Below, one piece after another: positions 38,982-64,000 of a DNA stretch of 64,000 bases. Every line of letters begins with the position of its first letter. Positions within the stretch are counted from its first letter, which is position 1. The DNA lies in contig JAODAV010000020.1 of assembly GCA_025463605.1 (NCBI GenBank), positions 1 through 64,000 on the forward strand, written 5' to 3'. This DNA comes from Rhodoglobus sp. (GTDB lineage: Bacteria > Actinomycetota > Actinomycetes > Actinomycetales > Microbacteriaceae). The notes under the pieces were generated by a model. That model was not told where the DNA came from. It saw only the letters and a list, made by a program, of their open reading frames with translations, and did no database searches. The position numbers were made by a program, and so were the translations under genes.

Positions 38982-39025
38982 GGTGGGTCGCCCAGCCGAC
39001 TACCCAGCCCGGCGAGCGACCCACC
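38982..39025 (+). terminator. Hairpin terminator after the LCP gene
   Basis: GGTGGGTCGC (38982-38991) pairs perfectly with GCGACCCACC (39016-39025), 24 bp after the stop codon. No T-run, as is common in high-GC actinobacteria. Confidence 0.65.
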
Positions 39026-39070
39026 ATCCCTCTGCGCTGACCCGAACTGTCGGCCGAGGGAGCGTGAGCG

Positions 39071-39106
39071 CTGGCTGGCTCCGATGCGACGTCAGGAGCC
39101 AGCCAG
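39071..39106. other. Perfect 12-bp stem-loop in the gap before tRNA-Ser(GCT)
   Basis: CTGGCTGGCTCC and GGAGCCAGCCAG pair with a 12-nt loop. It may be a second, bidirectional terminator or part of an RNA gene. Confidence 0.5.
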
Positions 39107-39184
39107 ACGGTAATCCTTCAGCCGGCGCCGGGCGAGGCGGACCGAAGCGGAGGCAAGCCGATCCCGGCGGCACCTAGGATGCAC

Positions 39185-39386
39185 CGCACAGCGCTAGGGC
39201 CCGCTAGCGCGCTGGGGGAGAGCGTTGGCTGCGGGTAAGGCTCTGTGTTTCGCCGGGATCGGAGTTGGATGAGCATGGGGTTGTCTCCGCGCCGAGTGGG
39301 AGGACTCGTCAGCCCGCCCCTCGGGTAAGGGCGGGCTCGAGCGCTTGCCTAACTATACGTGTCCTCCAAAAGGAGGACAAGCTTTT
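39185..39386 (+). ncRNA. Candidate structured non-coding RNA (unassigned)
   Basis: The gap 38959-39461 has no credible protein gene but contains successive stem-loops: GCGCTAG/CTAGCGC (39191-39210), AGCCCGCCC/GGGCGGGCT (39311-39337) and a closing GTCCTCC-AAAA-GGAGGAC (39361-39378) followed by TTTT. That last hairpin is the best intrinsic terminator in the region and implies a transcript ending at about 39386. I compared it by eye with SRP RNA, RNase P RNA, tmRNA and 6S RNA landmarks and could not match any. Strand follows from the T-run. Confidence 0.4.
39361..39386 (+). terminator. Intrinsic terminator
   Basis: Perfect 7-bp stem GTCCTCC/GGAGGAC with AAAA loop, then AAGCTTTT. Confidence 0.7.
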
Positions 39387-39439
39387 GCGCGTCCCCAATG
39401 CTGGGCACACCCGGTTCGTGTCCTCCGCCGCACGTTGGC

Positions 39440-39445
39440 TATGAT
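39440..39445 (+). promoter_or_regulatory. -10 box of tRNA-Ser(GCT)
   Basis: TATGAT lies 16 bp before the mature tRNA 5' end. Confidence 0.5.
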
Positions 39446-39461
39446 TGCTGACGCACCACCT

Positions 39462-39551
39462 GGAGACGTCGCATAGTTCGGCCTAGTGCACCACCCTGCT
39501 AAGGTGGAGAACCCTTAATGGGTTCCGTGGGTTCAAATCCCACCGTCTCCG
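39462..39551 (+). tRNA. tRNA-Ser (anticodon GCT)
   Basis: 90-nt class II tRNA. Acceptor GGAGACG/CGTCTCC; anticodon stem CCACC/GGTGG with loop CTGCTAA, anticodon GCT; long variable arm; T arm GTGGGTTCAAATCCCAC. CCA not encoded. Its 3' end is copied 205 bp downstream. Confidence 0.96.
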
Positions 39552-39822
39552 CAGACGAACAGAGACCGCCACTCGAGCGGTCTTTCTTCGTTTAACCAGG
39601 TCTCTGTTCGTTTGCGGACACGGTCTGGACGCGAACGCACTCGTGGGCCCCCGCTGAGCAGACCGGGCTTTCGCGCCGACCCTTCAACTCGATGCGTGCG
39701 AGATACCGCGCGATAGACCGGCGGCTCAGTAGGGGAGTCAAATCCCACCGTCTCCGCAGACGAGCAGAGACCGCCAGTTGTGCGGTCTTTCTTCGTTAAT
39801 CAGGTGTCCGTTCGTCTGCGGA
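39533..39822 (+). repeat. tRNA-tail composite repeat, copy A (block-core-block)
   Basis: Block 1 (39533-39618: tRNA 3' end, terminator and inverted arm) is repeated as block 2 (39738-39822) with few differences; both keep TCAAATCCCACCGTCTCCGC and the trailer inverted repeat. Between them is a 119-bp core (39619-39737) whose ends, GTGGGCCCCCGCTGAGCAG on the left and CGGCGGCTCAGTAGGGGAG on the right, recur behind tRNA-Arg. The core ends are themselves inverted (GCTCAGCGGGGG versus GCTCAGTAGGGG). No protein gene fits inside. Confidence 0.85.
39563..39590 (+). terminator. Terminator of tRNA-Ser(GCT)
   Basis: AGACCGC (39563-39569) pairs with GCGGTCT (39577-39583), followed by TTCTTCG. It is nested inside a longer inverted repeat, 39548-39567 with 39599-39618. 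Confidence 0.75.
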
Positions 39823-39862
39823 TCAAGCGACGCATCGCGGCGCTGCTCGCCGAGCTTCTCGC

Positions 39863-40789
39863 CTAGGGGAGCGTGTGCCCGGCGGCGGTGAAGAGCCGGT
39901 ACCACTCCTCGCGCGACAGCGGAATGTCCGACCCCGCCGCCGACTCGGTCACCCGCTCGGGCTTGGTCGTGCCGAGCACCACCTGCATGTTCGCGGGGTG
40001 CCGGGTGATCCAGGCGACTGCAATGCCGGTCGGGGTGACGCCGTGCGCGGCGGCGATCTCGTCGAGGGCGTCGTTCAGCGGGCCGTAGTTGTCGCGGTCG
40101 CCGATGAAGACGCCGTCGAAGAAGCCCTTCTGGAACGGCGACCAGGCCTGCAGGGTGATGTCGTTGAGCCGGGCGTAGTCGAGGATGCCGTTGTCGCGGT
40201 CGATCGACTGGTCGAGCGCGGCCATGTTGGCCGCGATGCCAGCCGCGATGAGCGGAGCATGTGTGATGCTCAGCTGCACCTGATTGAACGCGAGCGGCTG
40301 CGTGATGGAGCGCCTGAGAAGTTCCATTTGCCCGGGAGTCTGGTTGGAGACGCCGAAGTTGCGCACCTTGCCCGAACCATGGAGGGAGTCGAAGGCTGCC
40401 GCGACCTCATCCGGCTCGACCAGCGTGTCGGGACGGTGCAGCAGCAGCACGTCGAGGTGCTCGAGTCGGAGGGCAGCGAGCGTCTCGTCCACCGAGCTGA
40501 GGATGTGCTCCTTCGAGAAGTCCCAGAACCCGTTCCGGATCCCGACCTTCGACTGGATGATCACCGACTCGCGTTCGGTGGCCGTGAAGGTGATGGCGTC
40601 CCCGAAGCGCCGCTCGCAGGCGTGGTCACCGCCGTAGACATCGGCGTGATCGAAGTAGTTGATACCGGCATCACGAGCTGCGCCGACGAGTGCGCGGATC
40701 GCCGAGTCATCCAGCTTGGAGATCCGCATCAGCCCGAGGATGACGTTCGATGCGGTGAGGTTCGTGCGCAGTGGGGTGATGGTCTTCAT
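39863..40789 (-). CDS. Aldo/keto reductase
   Basis: 308 aa NAD(P)H-dependent TIM-barrel reductase of the YdhF-like group. Tetrad residues are visible: Asp/Tyr in YFDHADVYGGDHACE, Lys in IIQSKVGIRNG, His in VLLLHRPDTLVEP. Also FGVSNQTPGQMELL and the C-terminal VLGTTKPERV nucleotide-binding strand. Start at ATG 40789 (MKTITPLRTN); the longer frame upstream has no support. Physiological substrate unknown. Confidence 0.92.
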   Translation of the reverse strand: MKTITPLRTNLTASNVILGLMRISKLDDSAIRALVGAARDAGINYFDHADVYGGDHACERRFGDAITFTATERESVIIQSKVGIRNGFWDFSKEHILSSVDETLAALRLEHLDVLLLHRPDTLVEPDEVAAAFDSLHGSGKVRNFGVSNQTPGQMELLRRSITQPLAFNQVQLSITHAPLIAAGIAANMAALDQSIDRDNGILDYARLNDITLQAWSPFQKGFFDGVFIGDRDNYGPLNDALDEIAAAHGVTPTGIAVAWITRHPANMQVVLGTTKPERVTESAAGSDIPLSREEWYRLFTAAGHTLP

Positions 40790-58141: not shown

Positions 58142-58214
58142 GCGCCCGTAGCTCAGCGGATAGAGCAATTGACTACGGATCAATAGGCCGGGGGTTCAAA
58201 TCCCTCCGGGCGCA
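58142..58214 (+). tRNA. tRNA-Arg (anticodon ACG)
   Basis: 73 nt. Acceptor GCGCCCG/CGGGCGC, D arm AGCTCAGCGGATAGAGC, anticodon loop CTACGGA between ATTGA and TCAAT (anticodon ACG), T arm GGGGGTTCAAATCCCTC. CCA not encoded; discriminator A. Its 3' end is copied at 58405-58423. Confidence 0.96.
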
Positions 58215-58423
58215 CTCACAGAAGCGGGACATCACTTTCGAGTGGCGTCCCGCTTTGTGTTTCCGATGTCGCGCTTCTATGAGTGCGCCTGGGTGGACGC
58301 GAAGCCACTCGTGGGCCCCCGCTGAGCAGTCCGTTGCATCGCGCCCCTCGCGCTGCGTGTGCTTTCGTGTGACTGCGCGATGTGGCGGCGGCTCAGTAGG
58401 GGAGTCAGATCCCTCCGGGCGCA
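58197..58423 (+). repeat. tRNA-tail composite repeat, copy B (right block truncated)
   Basis: Block 1 (58197-58289) is the tRNA-Arg 3' end with its trailer hairpin. The core (58290-58404) shares CACTCGTGGGCCCCCGCTGA and CGGCGGCTCAGTAGGGGAG with copy A while the middle differs. The second copy of the tRNA end, TCAGATCCCTCCGGGCGCA (58405-58423), then stops matching, and unrelated accessory DNA begins. Confidence 0.85.
58222..58255 (+). terminator. Terminator of tRNA-Arg
   Basis: AGCGGGAC (58223-58230) pairs with GTCCCGCT (58247-58254), extended by CACT/AGTG around TTCG. Nested within the longer arms 58209-58226 and 58272-58289. Confidence 0.75.
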
Positions 58424-58425
58424 CC

Positions 58426-58482
58426 AAGAAAACAGGTCTGACCGGCATTTCTTCAGAGTGCAGGGATGGCCTGTTTTTCTTT
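58426..58482 (+). terminator. T-rich hairpin at the start of the accessory region
   Basis: AAGAAAACAGG pairs with CCTGTTTTTCTT (one bulge) and is followed by T residues. Positioned just after the duplicated tRNA end. Confidence 0.55.
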
Positions 58483-58693
58483 TGCCCACATTCTGCCCAC
58501 ACTTGATTTCAGAATCGGTTCCTTTCGGCATTCTGCGACAGCTAAGTCCGTGTGTTTCCACGGCATTGGCCTATTCATCTGCGGTGGCCTATTGATCTCG
58601 TTGCTGATCAATAGGCCCGGAGTTCCAGCTCTCCTGCCGTGCAACCTTCCGCCCGCTGGTCGTTCGACGGAGGTCGGGGATAGTGTGAACAAT

Positions 58694-59104
58694 GTGACTT
58701 GGCCTCGAAACTTATTCGCTGGCGCTGGCGGCGGAGAATCCGTTCTCAGAGGGGGCGGGATGTCTGTGCTCTCGGGCGGAGGCGCATCGGTGTTGCGTGG
58801 CGGAGGCCTGTCCGTGCTTAGCGGTGGAGGCATGTCGGTCCTCCGAGGCGGTGGGCTTTCTGTCCTTCAGGGTGGGGGCCTTTCGGTTCTTCGAGGGGGC
58901 GGCCTATCCGTTCTTCAGGGAGGGGGCCTTTCGGTCCTTCAAGGAGGCGGTCTTTCAGCCTTGCCTGGGGGCGGTCTCTGGAGTGGGCCTGACGACCATC
59001 CCTACATGAGTAACATCCCGCCGTGGCCAGTCTTCGTCAGAGAGCTGCGGGTCAGAGGCATGCATGACTACGCCGACATGATTGTGCAGGCTCGCGGACT
59101 CTAG
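58694..59104 (+). CDS. Octapeptide-repeat protein (Gly-Gly-Gly-x-Ser-Val-Leu repeats)
   Basis: 136 aa if GTG 58694 is the start, supported by TAGTGT ending 7 nt before it; GTG 58685 is possible and the longer open frame back to 58466 looks non-coding. After WPRNLFAGAGGGE come ten tandem octapeptides of the form S-V-L-(R/S/Q)-G-G-G-(L/M/A), encoded by 24-bp DNA repeats at about 58740-58975. The tail YMSNIPPWPVFVRELRVRG, then a short helix, closes the protein. Regularity suggests a beta-solenoid or an adhesive/assembly module. I know no named family. Confidence 0.65.
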   Translation: MTWPRNLFAGAGGGESVLRGGGMSVLSGGGASVLRGGGLSVLSGGGMSVLRGGGLSVLQGGGLSVLRGGGLSVLQGGGLSVLQGGGLSALPGGGLWSGPDDHPYMSNIPPWPVFVRELRVRGMHDYADMIVQARGL

Positions 59105-59232
59105 GTGTTGGGGTGTCACTCGCAAGTCACAGTTTGTCGCGCCGCCCAGGATGTCCTCGGAACTGTTCGTTGAGGTATTGCCACACTGGTTCTTCCTAGA
59201 GCGAGACTCGATCTTCGCCCCCACGATGCTCT

Positions 59233-59257
59233 TCCGAAGCACGCTAAGAGCTTCGGA
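59233..59257. terminator. Hairpin between convergent genes
   Basis: TCCGAAGC/GCTTCGGA, perfect 8-bp stem with 9-nt loop. The gap 59105-59299 otherwise shows no gene. Confidence 0.5.
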
Positions 59258-59299
59258 TGATCCACCGCGACAGTGGTTTCGGTGCTCCCCCCGAAAGCC

Positions 59300-59698
59300 C
59301 TAGGAAGTCTTGCGCACACGCACGGGGCGCGACATGCCTTCGACCTGCATCTCGTCATCGATCAACAACACCTCGGGTCGGTAGGCGTAGTGGTATTCGT
59401 AGAGATACTCGGCTTGCAGCCACTTACTGCCATCGGTTAGCTCAACGGTGGTGTGGCCGTTCCAGCCCTTCCAAGCGCCCTTCACCGTGCGTCGTGAGCT
59501 GCTCGGGACTTGGCGAACCCGAACAGCGCGGCTCATCCCGTCCACCGTCATTGATCCGTTTGCGACCGAGACGGCCGGCCGGTAGGCGTAGTGGTACTCG
59601 TAGTGATACTCGGCTTGCTGCCAGATCGTTCCATCAGTCAACTCGACTACCGTCTTGCCCGACCAGCCGTTCCAAGTCCCTTTGACAAAAGCAGACAT
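59300..59698 (-). CDS. Protein with a duplicated aromatic-rich EYxYEYHYAYRP domain
   Basis: 132 aa from ATG 59698. Two tandem copies of about 60 residues: the first with VKGTWNGWSGKTVVELTDG and QQAEYHYEYHYAYRPAV, the second with VKGAWKGWNGHTTVELTDG and QAEYLYEYHYAYRPEV; each closes with a G-M-S-R-x-V-R-V-R strand. The pattern suggests a small SH3-like barrel seen as a stand-alone or C-terminal module in accessory proteins. No catalytic residues evident. The longer open frame upstream is not supported. Confidence 0.75.
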   Translation of the reverse strand: MSAFVKGTWNGWSGKTVVELTDGTIWQQAEYHYEYHYAYRPAVSVANGSMTVDGMSRAVRVRQVPSSSRRTVKGAWKGWNGHTTVELTDGSKWLQAEYLYEYHYAYRPEVLLIDDEMQVEGMSRPVRVRKTS

Positions 59699-59924
59699 GC
59701 CCACGCCCTCTCGTGTTGACGGCCACTTTAGTGGCTCGGCGATGCGGGCTGCAGTCCAGATTGTGTGCCCTCTGCGGCGCCGCAACGAAATCGATGCCGC
59801 AGACCAGACTCGACAGCTGATCGCGCCGATATTGTGAGTTCGCGTCGGAAATGCCGGCAAGTTGATCAGCGGATCATGCGCGACGAGCAGTGAGTATGGG
59901 CACGGAAATCGGTTGGTCCGCCTA

Positions 59925-60158
59925 ATGCCGTCCGTCGAAGAAGAACTCGCCAGCTGGCTTAACGAACGGCCTGAATGGGTGAAGACGCTCGCCGCCACAC
60001 TGGTGGCGAGCGGCGTCATTGACCAGGCCGCCGTCGAGAAAATCGCGACCCAAGTGGTGAGCAGGAAGTCGTGGCGAGCTTGTGCGTACCGTCTGCCGCA
60101 GTGGGCGATTGTTACCGGCGTCCGTGATTGCAGGCGCATCAGTCCGGCACGCTCATAG
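59925..60158 (+). pseudogene. Possible remnant of the N-terminal domain of a larger protein
   Basis: 77 codons from ATG 59925. The first 45 residues (PSVEEELASWLNERPEWVKT, then a predicted helix pair) resemble the short helical N-terminal domain found on accessory AAA or helicase-like proteins, but the sequence then degenerates and stops. No RBS is evident. The surrounding gap 59704-60446 otherwise lacks credible genes. Confidence 0.35.
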
Positions 60159-60257
60159 AGGGGCAAACCGAGCGAGTGGGGCGATGCGCATTTGAGGCGG
60201 TTCTGCGACTGCTGAGGCCTGTTTCCGATTGTGAAAAGTGTGCAGAACTCGGCGAAG

Positions 60258-60278
60258 TTGTCCACATTCTGTGGATGA
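60258..60278. promoter_or_regulatory. Inverted pair of DnaA-box-like sites
   Basis: TTGTCCACA (60258-60266) and TGTGGATGA (60270-60278, inverse TCATCCACA) face each other across 3 bp. TTGTCCACA is the actinobacterial DnaA-box form. Only two boxes are visible. Confidence 0.35.
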
Positions 60279-60318
60279 CACGCCCACTACATCTAGGGTT
60301 CGCGACCTGTCCGCGGCA

Positions 60319-60390
60319 CACTATATAGTGGTTTCTCTGTGGCGTCTCACAGACGAAAAATGCCCGTCACATCCGTGACGGGCTTTCGGG
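60319..60390 (+). ncRNA. Candidate short RNA with intrinsic terminator
   Basis: The palindrome CACTATATAGTG (60319-60330) contains a TATATAGT -10. About 60 bp later a perfect stem GCCCGTCAC-ATCC-GTGACGGGC is followed by TTTCG. Between them TCTGTG/CACAGA forms a smaller stem. This predicts a transcript of roughly 50-60 nt, or a leader attenuator for the genes at 60447 onward. Confidence 0.4.
60362..60390 (+). terminator. Intrinsic terminator
   Basis: GCCCGTCAC (60362-60370) and GTGACGGGC (60375-60383) with an ATCC loop, then TTTCGGG. Confidence 0.65.
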
Positions 60391-60446
60391 AACAGTGTCG
60401 GTTTCCTAGGCCGTAGACACTCTTCGCTAACACAAGGACATCTCTC

Positions 60447-60584
60447 GTGAAAAAGAAAATGTTTGATCCAAGGTCGAGTCATAAGAATACCGATGGGTTG
60501 CCGCTTGTCAACTTTCGGCTCGGCGGGTTGCGCGCGGTCGGATCCCCAGCCGTCACAGAGCTCCGTTTAGGAGTCCTCCTGTGA
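60447..60584 (+). CDS. Small 45-aa protein before the interrupted membrane gene
   Basis: GTG 60447 has AAGGAC about 8 nt upstream and the stop overlaps the next GTG (GTGA). Begins MKKKMFDPRSSHKNTDGLP; basic and without membrane segments. No family recognised. Coupling to the following gene favours a real gene or a leader. Confidence 0.45.
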   Translation: MKKKMFDPRSSHKNTDGLPLVNFRLGGLRAVGSPAVTELRLGVLL

Positions 60585-62005
60585 CCGCTAGGGAGAGGCG
60601 TCAGAAGCGCAAGCGCGACGATTTTGTGCGCGGGTACACCCAGTTCGCTCAGCGGCCCGTTCTCCCCGTAGCGCCCATCGAGGCGGTCTGGGAGAAAGTA
60701 TGCGAGCTCATTCCGGTAGAGACGAGTGGCAAGAAGTCCGTCGAGCCGGCACCGAAGGACGAAGCGAACAACTCCGTAGTGAACAAGCGTCTCAAGCGCA
60801 CGCTCCGTGTCTTGGACGTGCTCGCTGCGCTTGCGTGGTTCTTCGTAATCACGAAGGTTTGCATCGCGGATATCGACCGCCTGTTCTTTTCGTGGGTAGC
60901 CCCGCAGGCGATGTGGCTTCTTGACCTGCGTGTGTTCGCCGTGCTGGGCCTCGCTTCGCTTCTGCTGCTCCTCTTCAAGCGTTGGAAGCTCGGCGTCGGG
61001 CTCGCCTATGTGTCCTTCTTCCCTCTCGTGGTTACGCTCTAGAAGGTCCCGAAGTTTTTCATCGACCGTGGCAGCCCGGCACTCGCTGTCGGTGCTCTCG
61101 GGGTGGTGATCAGCCTCGCGACCCGCGCGAAGGTCTGGGTCCTTGCTCTGACGATCGCGTCATTCAGCGCGCTCATGATCCTTCTCACGCACGATCCCGT
61201 TCTCGTCGGCATCGGCGTGGGCGCGATGCTGATCACACTGCTTTGGTGGTTCGGTGTGACGGCGATCGACCTCTTCCGGGCGCCGACTCTGCTTCGCGCT
61301 CACGAGATTGTCATCGATACCGTCCTCGGCTGGTCGATTATCGACCGCATAATGACGCCGAAGCGCCCCGATCGGGTCACGCTGAACAACTGGAGCAAGG
61401 AAGAGGCGACTGCCTACCGCGATAGTGCCGGGTGGGCGATCCTCACCTACCGCATCTTGTTCTTCTGGGCGTACCTTATTGACCAGTTCCGCAAGGGACC
61501 GGCGGTCATCGTGCTCAACGCGATCATCCTTATCGGTCTCAGCGCCCAGGTTGTCCTGGCATTCGCGTTCGCCACCTACGGGCTGTACGTCATCGATCCA
61601 CGACAGTTTGCTTTTGCCAGTTCCCCGGACGCCCTCACCTTCTTGTATTACTCCGCGGCCGGGATCAACGAGATCGATGCCCTAAAGCCTGTCGGCGAAT
61701 GGGCGATGGGTATGAAGCTGGCCGAGGGGGCCGTGTTCTTTGCCGGTATTGGGACGATCATCGGATCCACTGCGATGGCGTTCCGTAGCGTGAGGGCCGA
61801 CGCGACGGCGGTCACCGCAATCCAGCGGTTGAAGTCGAAGGCCGACGATATCGAAGCGCTCGCCGGAGCCCAGTTCGAGATGAGCCTTGACCAGCTCGAG
61901 CGGCAGCTGGTTGACGCCAGCTGGGGCCTGTTCGGGGTCGTCATGTGGCTCAGCGCTAAGACCCCGACGAGCTGGATCGACAGCGTGAGCGAGAAGTCGA
62001 AGTAG
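60581..62005 (+). pseudogene. Multi-pass membrane protein interrupted by an in-frame TAG
   Basis: One reading frame runs 60581-62005 (474 codons) but has a single TAG at 61040-61042, codon 154. The part before has a basic N-terminus and two helices (RVLDVLAALAWFFVITKVCI; FAVLGLASLLLLLFKRW); the part after continues hydrophobic helices without shift (ALAVGALGVVISLATRAKVW) and ends with a pore-helix-like YYSAAGINEIDAL between two helices, reminiscent of two-TM ion channels, then a coiled helix. Nonsense mutation, sequencing error, suppression or two separate proteins are all possible. Confidence 0.6.
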
Positions 62006-62154
62006 CCCCTGGTGGGGCTGCTGCTATCCATGAGTAGCCCCACAAGAACGGTCGCAGGAGACAGACACGGGCCAATAGACTGATCGTCCGTTCGGGATGG
62101 GGTGCACGGAGGAACGCACGTCGAAGGGCGCAGGCGTCGGCCGGGGCGCTGCTA

Positions 62155-62394
62155 TTGTTCACGCTGACCGCTTGCGGCTCCGGCGAGTCGGCGGTGATGC
62201 CTGATGTCGTCGGTCTGCAGCTCGACATCGTGAAAAGCGACATCGAACGCGCTGGGTTCGGCGGGGATGTCGAGATCATCGGCGGCGGATTGTTCAGCGT
62301 CGTTAACGAAAGCACCTGGGACTTTCCGAGGTTGATGCTGGCCCGGAGTTCGACCCTCCTCAGGGCCCTAGGAGCTTCAGCGTCCAACCCCTAG
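62155..62394 (+). pseudogene. Decayed PASTA-domain lipoprotein
   Basis: The frame contains a lipoprotein signal (LLLFTLTACGSGE, Cys after TA) and the start of a PASTA domain (VMPDVVGLQLDIVKSDIERA, GGGLFSVVNESTW). No ATG, GTG or TTG precedes the signal hydrophobic core other than TTG 62155 inside it, and the expected PASTA continuation (LSEVDAGPEFDPPQGPRSFS) is in the next frame, indicating a frameshift near 62315. Probably a broken gene upstream of the NTPase. Confidence 0.5.
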
Positions 62395-62403
62395 CATCGA
62401 GTC

Positions 62404-64000
62404 GTGTCTGACGTTCCTGAAGCGACCTCGAGACTAGCCAGTGACAATCCCGAGGTGAACGCCCAAAGTGGCGATCCCTTCTGGCGACGCTTTCTCCCGC
62501 GGCGCCGAATGGCCGCGGGACCGATGCCGCACATCGTCGCGCCTCGCTGGCCCAGTCGCGTGGGAAATGCGCTTCCGCTAGTCAATCTCGCGCCGGAGTA
62601 TAGACCTGAGCACCACCAGGTATATCTGGACCTGCTCGAACGAGCTTTGCGTCACCCGGACACTCGCAGCATTGCACTGACCGGCGCGTATGGCTCAGGC
62701 AAGTCGAGTGTGCTGCGGGCGCTCGGTCGACGATGGTGGGACCGGCGGGTCATCATCGAGCTCTCATTGTCGACCCTTGACCCTGACATTGCTCCTGACG
62801 TGCAGGCCGAAAATCCTGCCGAAAGAGAAATGAGCAATCGCATCCAAAAGGAGCTCGTCAAGCAGCTTCTCTATCGCTTGCCGCCGCGAAGAACCACTCG
62901 TTCTCGGTTTCCCAGGGCCTCCACTCCCTCGTGGAGGACGGGAGTTCTCGTAGCCCTCGCGGCTATCGCCTTGGTCTATCTGGGCTGGACAGCGATGACC
63001 CTCGCGGGGTGGCAGGAGGTGCTTTCGCAGCGACTCAATGAGGTCGGATGGAGTGAGCCCTGGTTTCGGGCGAGCACGACCGCGGTGATCGTCATCATCG
63101 CACTAATCGGGTGGTGGAAGCTCGCGGGCCGTTATGCACTGAAGGCGGGGGTAAATGCCGGAACGCTGACGGTCAGCCTAGAACCGTCTTCCTCAAGCTA
63201 CTTCGACCAATATCTCGACGAGATCATGTACTTCTTCCAAGTCAGCAAGGCTCGCATCGTATTGATCGAAGACGTCGACAGATTTGGTGACGCTGTGGTG
63301 TTCGACACCCTTCGGGCGCTAAACACGTTGGTCAACAGTTCCGGCCAAGTAGGGCGGCGCGTCGTCTTCGTCTATGCCATTCGAGACAGCGTTCTCGGAC
63401 AAATCGGCACGGACAAGAAGTCCAAGCGCGGTCCGCGGCGCTCCAAGACCGCACTCGGAATCGACCGAGCGAACCGGGCAAAGTACTTCGACGTCATAAT
63501 CCCGATGGTGCCATTCGTGACAGCCGATAACGCTCGCGACCTCATGATGCAGGCCATGAAGGCGCACGTAAAGAACGAACTAGAAGAAGACGGAATCTCC
63601 CCGGCCCTAATCCGCCTAGCGGCACGGCATGTGGCCGACATGCGCACGATTTGGTCGATCCGCAATGAATTTGAAGTGCATGTCGACCGACTAATGACGT
63701 CGGCGCCTAATGTCATGCCGGGGATCAACAAGGACATCATTCTCTCCCTAGTGTTGCTGCGAGCCACCAGCCCAGATGCCTACGAGCGGATACGCCTCGG
63801 CACCAGTCCGCTGGACACCCTTGCCCAACGCTGGATAGATCTTGTCGAAGCAAACATCGAGAGTCAGACCAAGAATCTAACTACCAAACGCACCGAGCTC
63901 GAGAACGGAAGCTCCCTCTCGTCCCGGGCCGCGCGCGCTGGTGAGTTGCTCGACTCGATGCGCGCCGAGTTGTTGCCAATGACGACGTCGATTACAGCGA
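62404..64000 (+). CDS. YobI/KAP-like P-loop NTPase with membrane segments (3' end outside window)
   Basis: Open from GTG 62404 to the window edge, at least 532 codons. TAGCAT ends 6 nt before the GTG, so leaderless start is likely. Residues 94-102 GAYGSGKSS are Walker A; two hydrophobic segments follow (LVALAAIALVYLGW and TTAVIVIIALIGWW, about 180-240), then Walker B RIVLIEDVDRFG and a sensor-like VVFVYAIRDSVLG. Membrane helices inserted in a P-loop domain are typical of KAP NTPases and the YobI group, which are associated with phage and plasmid conflict loci. Function unknown. Confidence 0.8.
   Translation, partial: MSDVPEATSRLASDNPEVNAQSGDPFWRRFLPRRRMAAGPMPHIVAPRWPSRVGNALPLVNLAPEYRPEHHQVYLDLLERALRHPDTRSIALTGAYGSGKSSVLRALGRRWWDRRVIIELSLSTLDPDIAPDVQAENPAEREMSNRIQKELVKQLLYRLPPRRTTRSRFPRASTPSWRTGVLVALAAIALVYLGWTAMTLAGWQEVLSQRLNEVGWSEPWFRASTTAVIVIIALIGWWKLAGRYALKAGVNAGTLTVSLEPSSSSYFDQYLDEIMYFFQVSKARIVLIEDVDRFGDAVVFDTLRALNTLVNSSGQVGRRVVFVYAIRDSVLGQIGTDKKSKRGPRRSKTALGIDRANRAKYFDVIIPMVPFVTADNARDLMMQAMKAHVKNELEEDGISPALIRLAARHVADMRTIWSIRNEFEVHVDRLMTSAPNVMPGINKDIILSLVLLRATSPDAYERIRLGTSPLDTLAQRWIDLVEANIESQTKNLTTKRTELENGSSLSSRAARAGELLDSMRAELLPMTTSITA

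Follow-up and report, generated by a model that had tools for sequence, protein, structure and literature searches.

A family of short non-coding hairpins, possibly mobile, at tRNA 3' ends of Microbacteriaceae

Genomes of Microbacteriaceae contain a family of short non-coding hairpins that lie preferentially at the 3' ends of tRNA genes and are followed by a copy of the tail of the local tRNA. Their structure covaries, orthologous loci without them exist, and some copies occur away from tRNA genes. On balance, by a small margin, we read them as non-autonomous mobile elements that insert at stem-loops and whose flanks are re-templated. The hairpin presumably moves as a unit, and its flanks would be made anew from the target at every new site.

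Bacterial mobile DNA classically docks at the 3' ends of tRNA genes, as a rule with one integrase for each tRNA. If the mobile reading is correct, these sites would have another use: they would serve a hairpin of about 57-92 nt that is found at 22 different tRNA tails and at some terminators and whose flanks are re-made from each host gene. Such an element also creates spare attachment sites, one of which apparently received a genomic island in the genome studied here. Since the family offers dozens of natural insertions together with empty sites, the mechanism is directly testable.

Results

The two loci of the window

The window, that is, the whole stretch of 64,000 nucleotides of Rhodoglobus sp. 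(genome G000) that was analysed, contains two copies of the element, one behind tRNA-Ser(GCT) and one behind tRNA-Arg(ACG) (Table 1). At the former locus the two blocks are identical in 77 of 86 alignment columns, with 8 mismatches and 1 gap; the alignment score is 125, and 200 shuffles reach 26 at most. Without gaps, the repeat covers 60 nt at 93% identity with a spacing of 205. The core between the tail copies is 119 nt long (39619-39737) and contains no convincing open reading frame, one mechanical minus-strand ORF of 71 aa running across it. Thus the alignment and the shuffles confirm what the earlier note had described, a tail duplicated 205 bp apart around a 119-bp core without coding potential. 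The core ends, GCTCAGCGGGGG at 39648 on the minus strand and GCTCAGTAGGGG at 39724 on the plus strand, are imperfect inverted repeats, as was also noticed there, and form opposite sides of the base of one hairpin. A second inverted copy of the tail comes after the terminator of block copy 2. Each block is itself palindromic, and the parts follow each other in the order tail, terminator, inverted tail and core, then a second tail, terminator and inverted tail. The tRNA gene stays intact because the tail, from the T-loop to the trailer, occurs twice.

Table 1. Features of the two window loci and copies at the rpmA-obgE intergenic region
Feature	Position in the window	Strand	Evidence or detail
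tRNA-Ser(GCT), intact	39462..39552	+	ARAGORN; Rfam tRNA match
Block copy 1, running from the T-loop over the acceptor end and trailer into a terminator hairpin at 39564-39582 and most of the inverted tail	39533..39618	+	repeat search, alignment
Inverted copy of tRNA-Ser 3' end and trailer (reverse complement of 39542-39567)	39599..39624	+	26 nt, 92% complementary; folding
Core element, inner hairpin 39645-39736	39625..39745	+	covariance model R1 match, 113.8 bits
Block copy 2, with the tail of tRNA-Ser and its trailer, a terminator hairpin at 39769-39787 and the inverted tail at 39803-39822 (repeat search, alignment)	39738..39822	+
tRNA-Arg(ACG), intact	58142..58215	+	ARAGORN
Terminator-like hairpin behind tRNA-Arg	58222..58255	+	inverted repeat
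Inverted copy of tRNA-Arg tail and trailer (partner 58192-58233)	58265..58306	+	79% complementary
Second core element, inner hairpin 58313-58403	58293..58412	+	R1 match, 119.4 bits
tRNA-Arg 3' tail copy behind the core	58399..58424	+	direct repeat, 88%
rpmA-obgE intergenic copies (L278, L282, L286, L287, L288, L291, L295)			seven genomes

Both core-end sequences of the Ser locus reappear behind tRNA-Arg(ACG), at 58316 (minus) and 58391 (plus). The Ser and Arg cores align with an E-value of 1e-19; their ends are near-identical and their middles have diverged. The tail that follows the Arg core is that of tRNA-Arg and not that of tRNA-Ser. Because the same tail, in inverted form, also makes up the left flank, the three parts fold together: as RNA, inverted tail, core and tail give one long three-way structure, which in both window copies has a small side hairpin.

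The stretch from 58425 to 64000, behind the tail copy at the Arg locus, belongs to an integrative island of about 8 kb that continues to G000:C40:66516-66558. The apparent insertion site of this island is the copied tail (copy 2), not the tRNA. At the far end lies a 43-nt copy of tRNA-Arg followed by a native-looking terminator, and the sequence past Arg copy 2 resembles what directly follows tRNA-Arg in the genomes G017 and G006. The island contains an ORF of 212 aa (58466-59104, plus strand) with many repeats of the GGGLSVLRGGG type. The same tRNA in G011 is accompanied by four 45-nt copies of its 3' end within approximately 17 kb (G011:C1, about 1176141-1193052), which suggests stacked islands.

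Spread of the family

A gapped pattern of both core ends, searched in genome contigs, yields 21 stretches with 23 cores. The contigs are named as Salinibacterium, Leifsonia, Rhodoglobus, Glaciihabitans, Marisediminicola, Lacisediminihabitans and Schumannella, or belong to actinobacterial MAGs. The covariance model R1, built from 27 cores, has matches in 38 of 398 genomes and 18 of 85 genera of the family (E <= 1e-3). Within the genus it matches 15 of 27 genomes, at most 15 times per genome, and 12 genomes have no match. The only match among the 396 sampled genomes of the order is in the genome of the window itself (E <= 1e-4).

From the fetched loci, which are a subset of all matches, 132 distinct cores were collected. 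A tRNA gene on the same strand is present within 260 nt upstream of 95 cores, at 26-88 nt for 90 of them, and these tRNAs represent 22 isoacceptors. This agrees with the earlier proposal of a small non-autonomous element at tRNA 3' ends. Among the remaining 37 cores, 26 have a recognisable tRNA tail behind them, some of them displaced by islands. Of the 11 cores without a clear tail, 5 seem to be units at tRNAs that were damaged or truncated, and 6 have no nearby tRNA (L098, L101, L246, L256, L262, L269).

The core is the same behind class II tRNAs (Ser, Leu, Tyr) and class I tRNAs, and hence is not derived from the local gene. Which tRNAs are occupied varies among the genomes. A tree built from 58 long cores shows 33 switches of tRNA label; it is poorly resolved, with 4 of 54 inner branches starred, and the label count is given without a shuffle control. 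The closest relative of the Ser(GCT) core of the window is the Ser(GCT) core of G019, and thus the spread is in part vertical or by homologous exchange. Tandem units were found in L114, L092, L110 and L241. Two further loci (L096 and L097) each contain two near-identical cores, about 2.2 kb and about 7.2 kb apart; this spacing suggests that the cores serve as recombination sites or that islands have split tandem units.

Flanks made from the local tRNA

When the tail behind the core is scored against a panel of tRNAs, the upstream tRNA is the best fit for 80 of the 95 cores; 6 cases are ties, and in 9 another tRNA fits better. It was anticipated in the earlier note that each core would be followed by the 3' end of its own tRNA, and for most loci this is what is observed. 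The mean score is 14.7, compared with 6.8 when the tRNAs are permuted (maximum 7.5 in 200 permutations). A stricter ungapped test gives 70 of 95 own-best cases and 5 ties, the misses including tRNA-Gly copies with a different offset.

The inverted left flank has a mean own-tRNA score of 9.11 versus 6.81 for permuted tRNAs (maximum 7.30 of 200, n = 90); case by case the effect is modest, the own tRNA being among the top 5% in only 30 of 90 loci. The palindrome formed by the tail, the spacer and the inverted tail beats shuffled sequences in 89 of 90 loci, where the stretch compared contains the terminator, itself palindromic, and so this support for the inverted tail is weak.

Hairpin structure and covariation

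The conserved part of the element is the inner hairpin, mostly 57-92 nt long, with the pattern GGGCCC...GCAGTCC...GGCGGC...GGGGA. In a MAFFT alignment of 27 rows, 94.9% of cells are paired, the structure being drawn from the same alignment, and the covariation is 0.293 versus 0.093 for shuffled alignments, with none of 500 shuffles as high. For 109 cores, 93.4% of cells are paired, a figure inflated by the fitting of this alignment to the model structure. Changes on both sides are seen in 22 of 25 pairs, and the covariation is 0.382 versus 0.117 (0 of 500 shuffles).

On the tRNA-sense strand, G-U pairs outnumber A-C pairs 198 to 21, or 61 to 21 after removal of two G-U-rich pairs. This excess points to the tRNA-sense strand folding as RNA. 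It suggests selection on an RNA, for which a hairpin that is purely selfish DNA would have no need. In an Rfam search of window positions 39000-40200 with E up to 1, only the tRNA reached the gathering score; a chance-level miRNA match (E 0.65) overlaps the palindrome. Likewise, the tRNA alone was found at the gathering score in L101, L111 and L115.

Empty sites and copies away from tRNA genes

The empty sites that were to be looked for at orthologous tRNA loci do exist. The tRNA-Ser(GCT) gene is present in all 27 genomes of the genus and is occupied by a core in only 4 (G000, G019, G021, G022), where emptiness in 10 genomes is judged from the absence of R1 matches. In G014, one related terminator follows the tRNA and the core is absent. 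At tRNA-Arg(ACG), a core was flagged in 3 of 26 readable loci out of 28 (G000, G019, G023), and R1 loci add G003, G021 and G022.

In the rpmA-obgE intergenic region, 25 loci were read by eye (2 of 27 were unparsed), and in 18 of them the terminator hairpin stands alone. A core in the gene sense is located at this hairpin in G000, G003, G002 and G018, and a core in the opposite sense lies beside it in G008, G016 and G023. The left arm of the G000 copy is the complement of the terminator loop plus the right arm.

A shorter covariance model, R2, has 89 matches in 16 of the 27 genus genomes. By context reading, 13 of the 89 lack a tRNA tail, 6 of these being at the rpmA-obgE terminator hairpin, where both orientations occur, and the remaining matches are at or behind tRNA tails. 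Thus the expectation that cores occur only behind tRNAs holds for most of them and fails for these 13 R2 matches and for the 6 of 132 R1 cores at non-tRNA positions.

Islands, partner enzymes, phages and plasmids

Genes are present between the tRNA and the core in L001, L010, L012 and L013. The core could be the right end of such cargo islands, a reading that was rejected for four loci, L091 (Lys), L089 (Met), L094 (Tyr) and L095 (Met), because larger flanks revealed that the tRNA tail is repeated 82-86 nt upstream of the core. This tail copy belongs to the island, so that the core following it is not a part of the island. In L088 and L100, no tail copy before the core was found with 12-mers, and a short remnant was seen by eye. 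Judging by eye, the ORFs beside the tRNA in L089, L091 and L095 presumably encode tyrosine integrases. Island genes lie between the tRNA and the core in L091 (638-1786, minus strand) and L095 (17932-18840, minus strand); also by eye, they resemble genes for a TIR-domain protein and a DUF3800-like protein, possibly phage-defence cargo.

Reverse transcriptases, Y1 transposases and IS110-type transposases were considered as partner enzymes and rejected, having no consistent link to the cores in the 27 genus genomes. The Y1 transposase domain (PF01797) was found in none of the 27 genomes, while 5 of 14 control genomes were positive. RVT_1 is present in 6 of 27, among the 15 core-bearing genomes only in G003, G012 and G022 (one match in G022). 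An IS110-type transposase is encoded in 3 of 27 genomes, G003 being the sole core-bearer. All three are absent from the other core-bearing genomes, for instance G000 (the assembly is 87% complete), G008, G019, G021 and G023.

A search with the core against 50,697 phage and 72,556 plasmid records gave no match at E 0.01 (near records may be omitted). A longer query matched 51 phage records and, among the 20 matches listed, only by its tRNA part. An exact search of viral contigs with a 20-mer of the core gave nothing; a 19-mer had one match, L347, where the core is located behind a copy of the tRNA-Lys 3' end. This core is read as host flank, and on these searches carriage of the core by phages or plasmids was rejected.

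Discussion

Possible mechanism

Insertion would occur into or beside stem-loops, chiefly tRNA tails and sometimes intrinsic terminators such as that of rpmA-obgE. At tRNAs, the right edge of the element abuts the T-loop. The most likely route, ahead of recombination at att sites, may be hairpin-primed template switching during DNA synthesis, in which the tail would be copied back and then forward. These elements might even represent a novel type of mobile element, in which a bare hairpin would recognise folded stem-loops and not a sequence and would rewrite both flanks from the target, possibly via an RNA form, so that any tRNA tail could be used without damage to the tRNA; we consider this bolder proposal tentative, the odds being somewhat against it.

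Alternative explanations

The main rival, which we hold to be rather unlikely as the whole explanation, is that the hairpin is a functional structured RNA under selection, namely a small RNA or a 3' processing or termination element on tRNA transcripts. Its closing stem would use the local tail, giving a tRNA-like minihelix, and it would have spread by recombination between tRNA loci. The excess of G-U over A-C pairs on the tRNA-sense strand, the extensive compensatory change and the single three-way fold of the inverted tail, core and tail all speak for it. Against it speaks the patchiness of the family, with 12 of 27 genus genomes lacking an R1 match and the occupied tRNAs varying. Moreover, a terminator separates the tRNA from the core in both window copies, and the copies at rpmA-obgE have no tRNA and are in part reversely oriented. 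The two readings are compatible, as transcription of a mobile hairpin is conceivable.

The earlier note had proposed mobilisation by an integrase encoded elsewhere, or a scar of repeated integration. A miniature att-site element moved in trans by a tyrosine integrase would explain why direct repeats of the tail enclose the core in the manner of attL and attR, why the occupied tRNAs are integration hot spots, and why the island at tRNA-Arg apparently uses copy 2 as its site. Yet it fits poorly with one core family behind 22 isoacceptors with different tails, leaves the inverted tail unexplained and does not account for the non-tRNA copies; the islands are separate insertions, with the core outside them at the four loci described above, and the phage and plasmid records searched gave no match to the core. 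On the different tails, the non-tRNA copies and the separateness of the islands, an integrase-mobilised element was rejected as the main reading, and we regard it as improbable. Even less can be said for local inverted and tandem duplications of the tail by replication slippage, the units being immobile and the likeness of the cores reflecting the conserved tRNA D-arm (GCTCAG). The tandem units and the core ends, which by eye are D-arm-like, are what one would expect, but what the cores have in common goes far beyond a likeness to D-arms and extends over class I and class II tRNAs and over different genera, and the core is present at rpmA-obgE without a tRNA. Slippage is thus a very improbable source of the family, and a mobile hairpin with re-templated flanks is the reading that we retain.

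Comparison with known systems

The tyrT repeats of E. coli, associated with rtT RNA, are units behind a tRNA that each start with the tRNA 3' end and possibly give rise to a small RNA. The units described here likewise start with a tRNA 3' end, and some stand in tandem. However, the tyrT repeats are known from a single tRNA only and are not known to include a shared hairpin moving among tRNAs.

Integrative elements that target tRNA genes include those with tyrosine integrases, cis-mobilisable elements and tycheposons. The position at the tRNA 3' end and the direct tail repeats at both ends are common to these and to the hairpin family, whereas the latter is gene-free, serves 22 isoacceptors, has an inverted tail copy and also inserts outside tRNAs. 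Group IIC introns and some IS elements target terminator or REP hairpins, which is analogous to the preference for stem-loops seen here; in contrast to them, the core is itself merely a hairpin, and RVT_1 and IS110-type matches are missing from the element-rich genomes G000, G008, G019, G021 and G023, although G022 has one RVT_1 match.

REP and REPIN sequences usually occur in more than 100 copies per genome. REP/REPIN sequences, with their RAYT transposases (PMC2817692, PMC3116915), resemble the core in being short, dispersed, intergenic, non-coding, non-autonomous palindromes, sometimes in composite arrays. The core differs from them in having at most 15 R1 matches per genus genome, in its concentration at tRNA tails, in the copies of host tails and in the absence of Y1 transposases from all 27 genomes. 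Listings of the open-licence PubMed Central literature name nothing like this element. The core belongs to a known kind as a non-autonomous palindromic repeat; to our knowledge, the targeting of tRNA tails with re-templated flanks is new.
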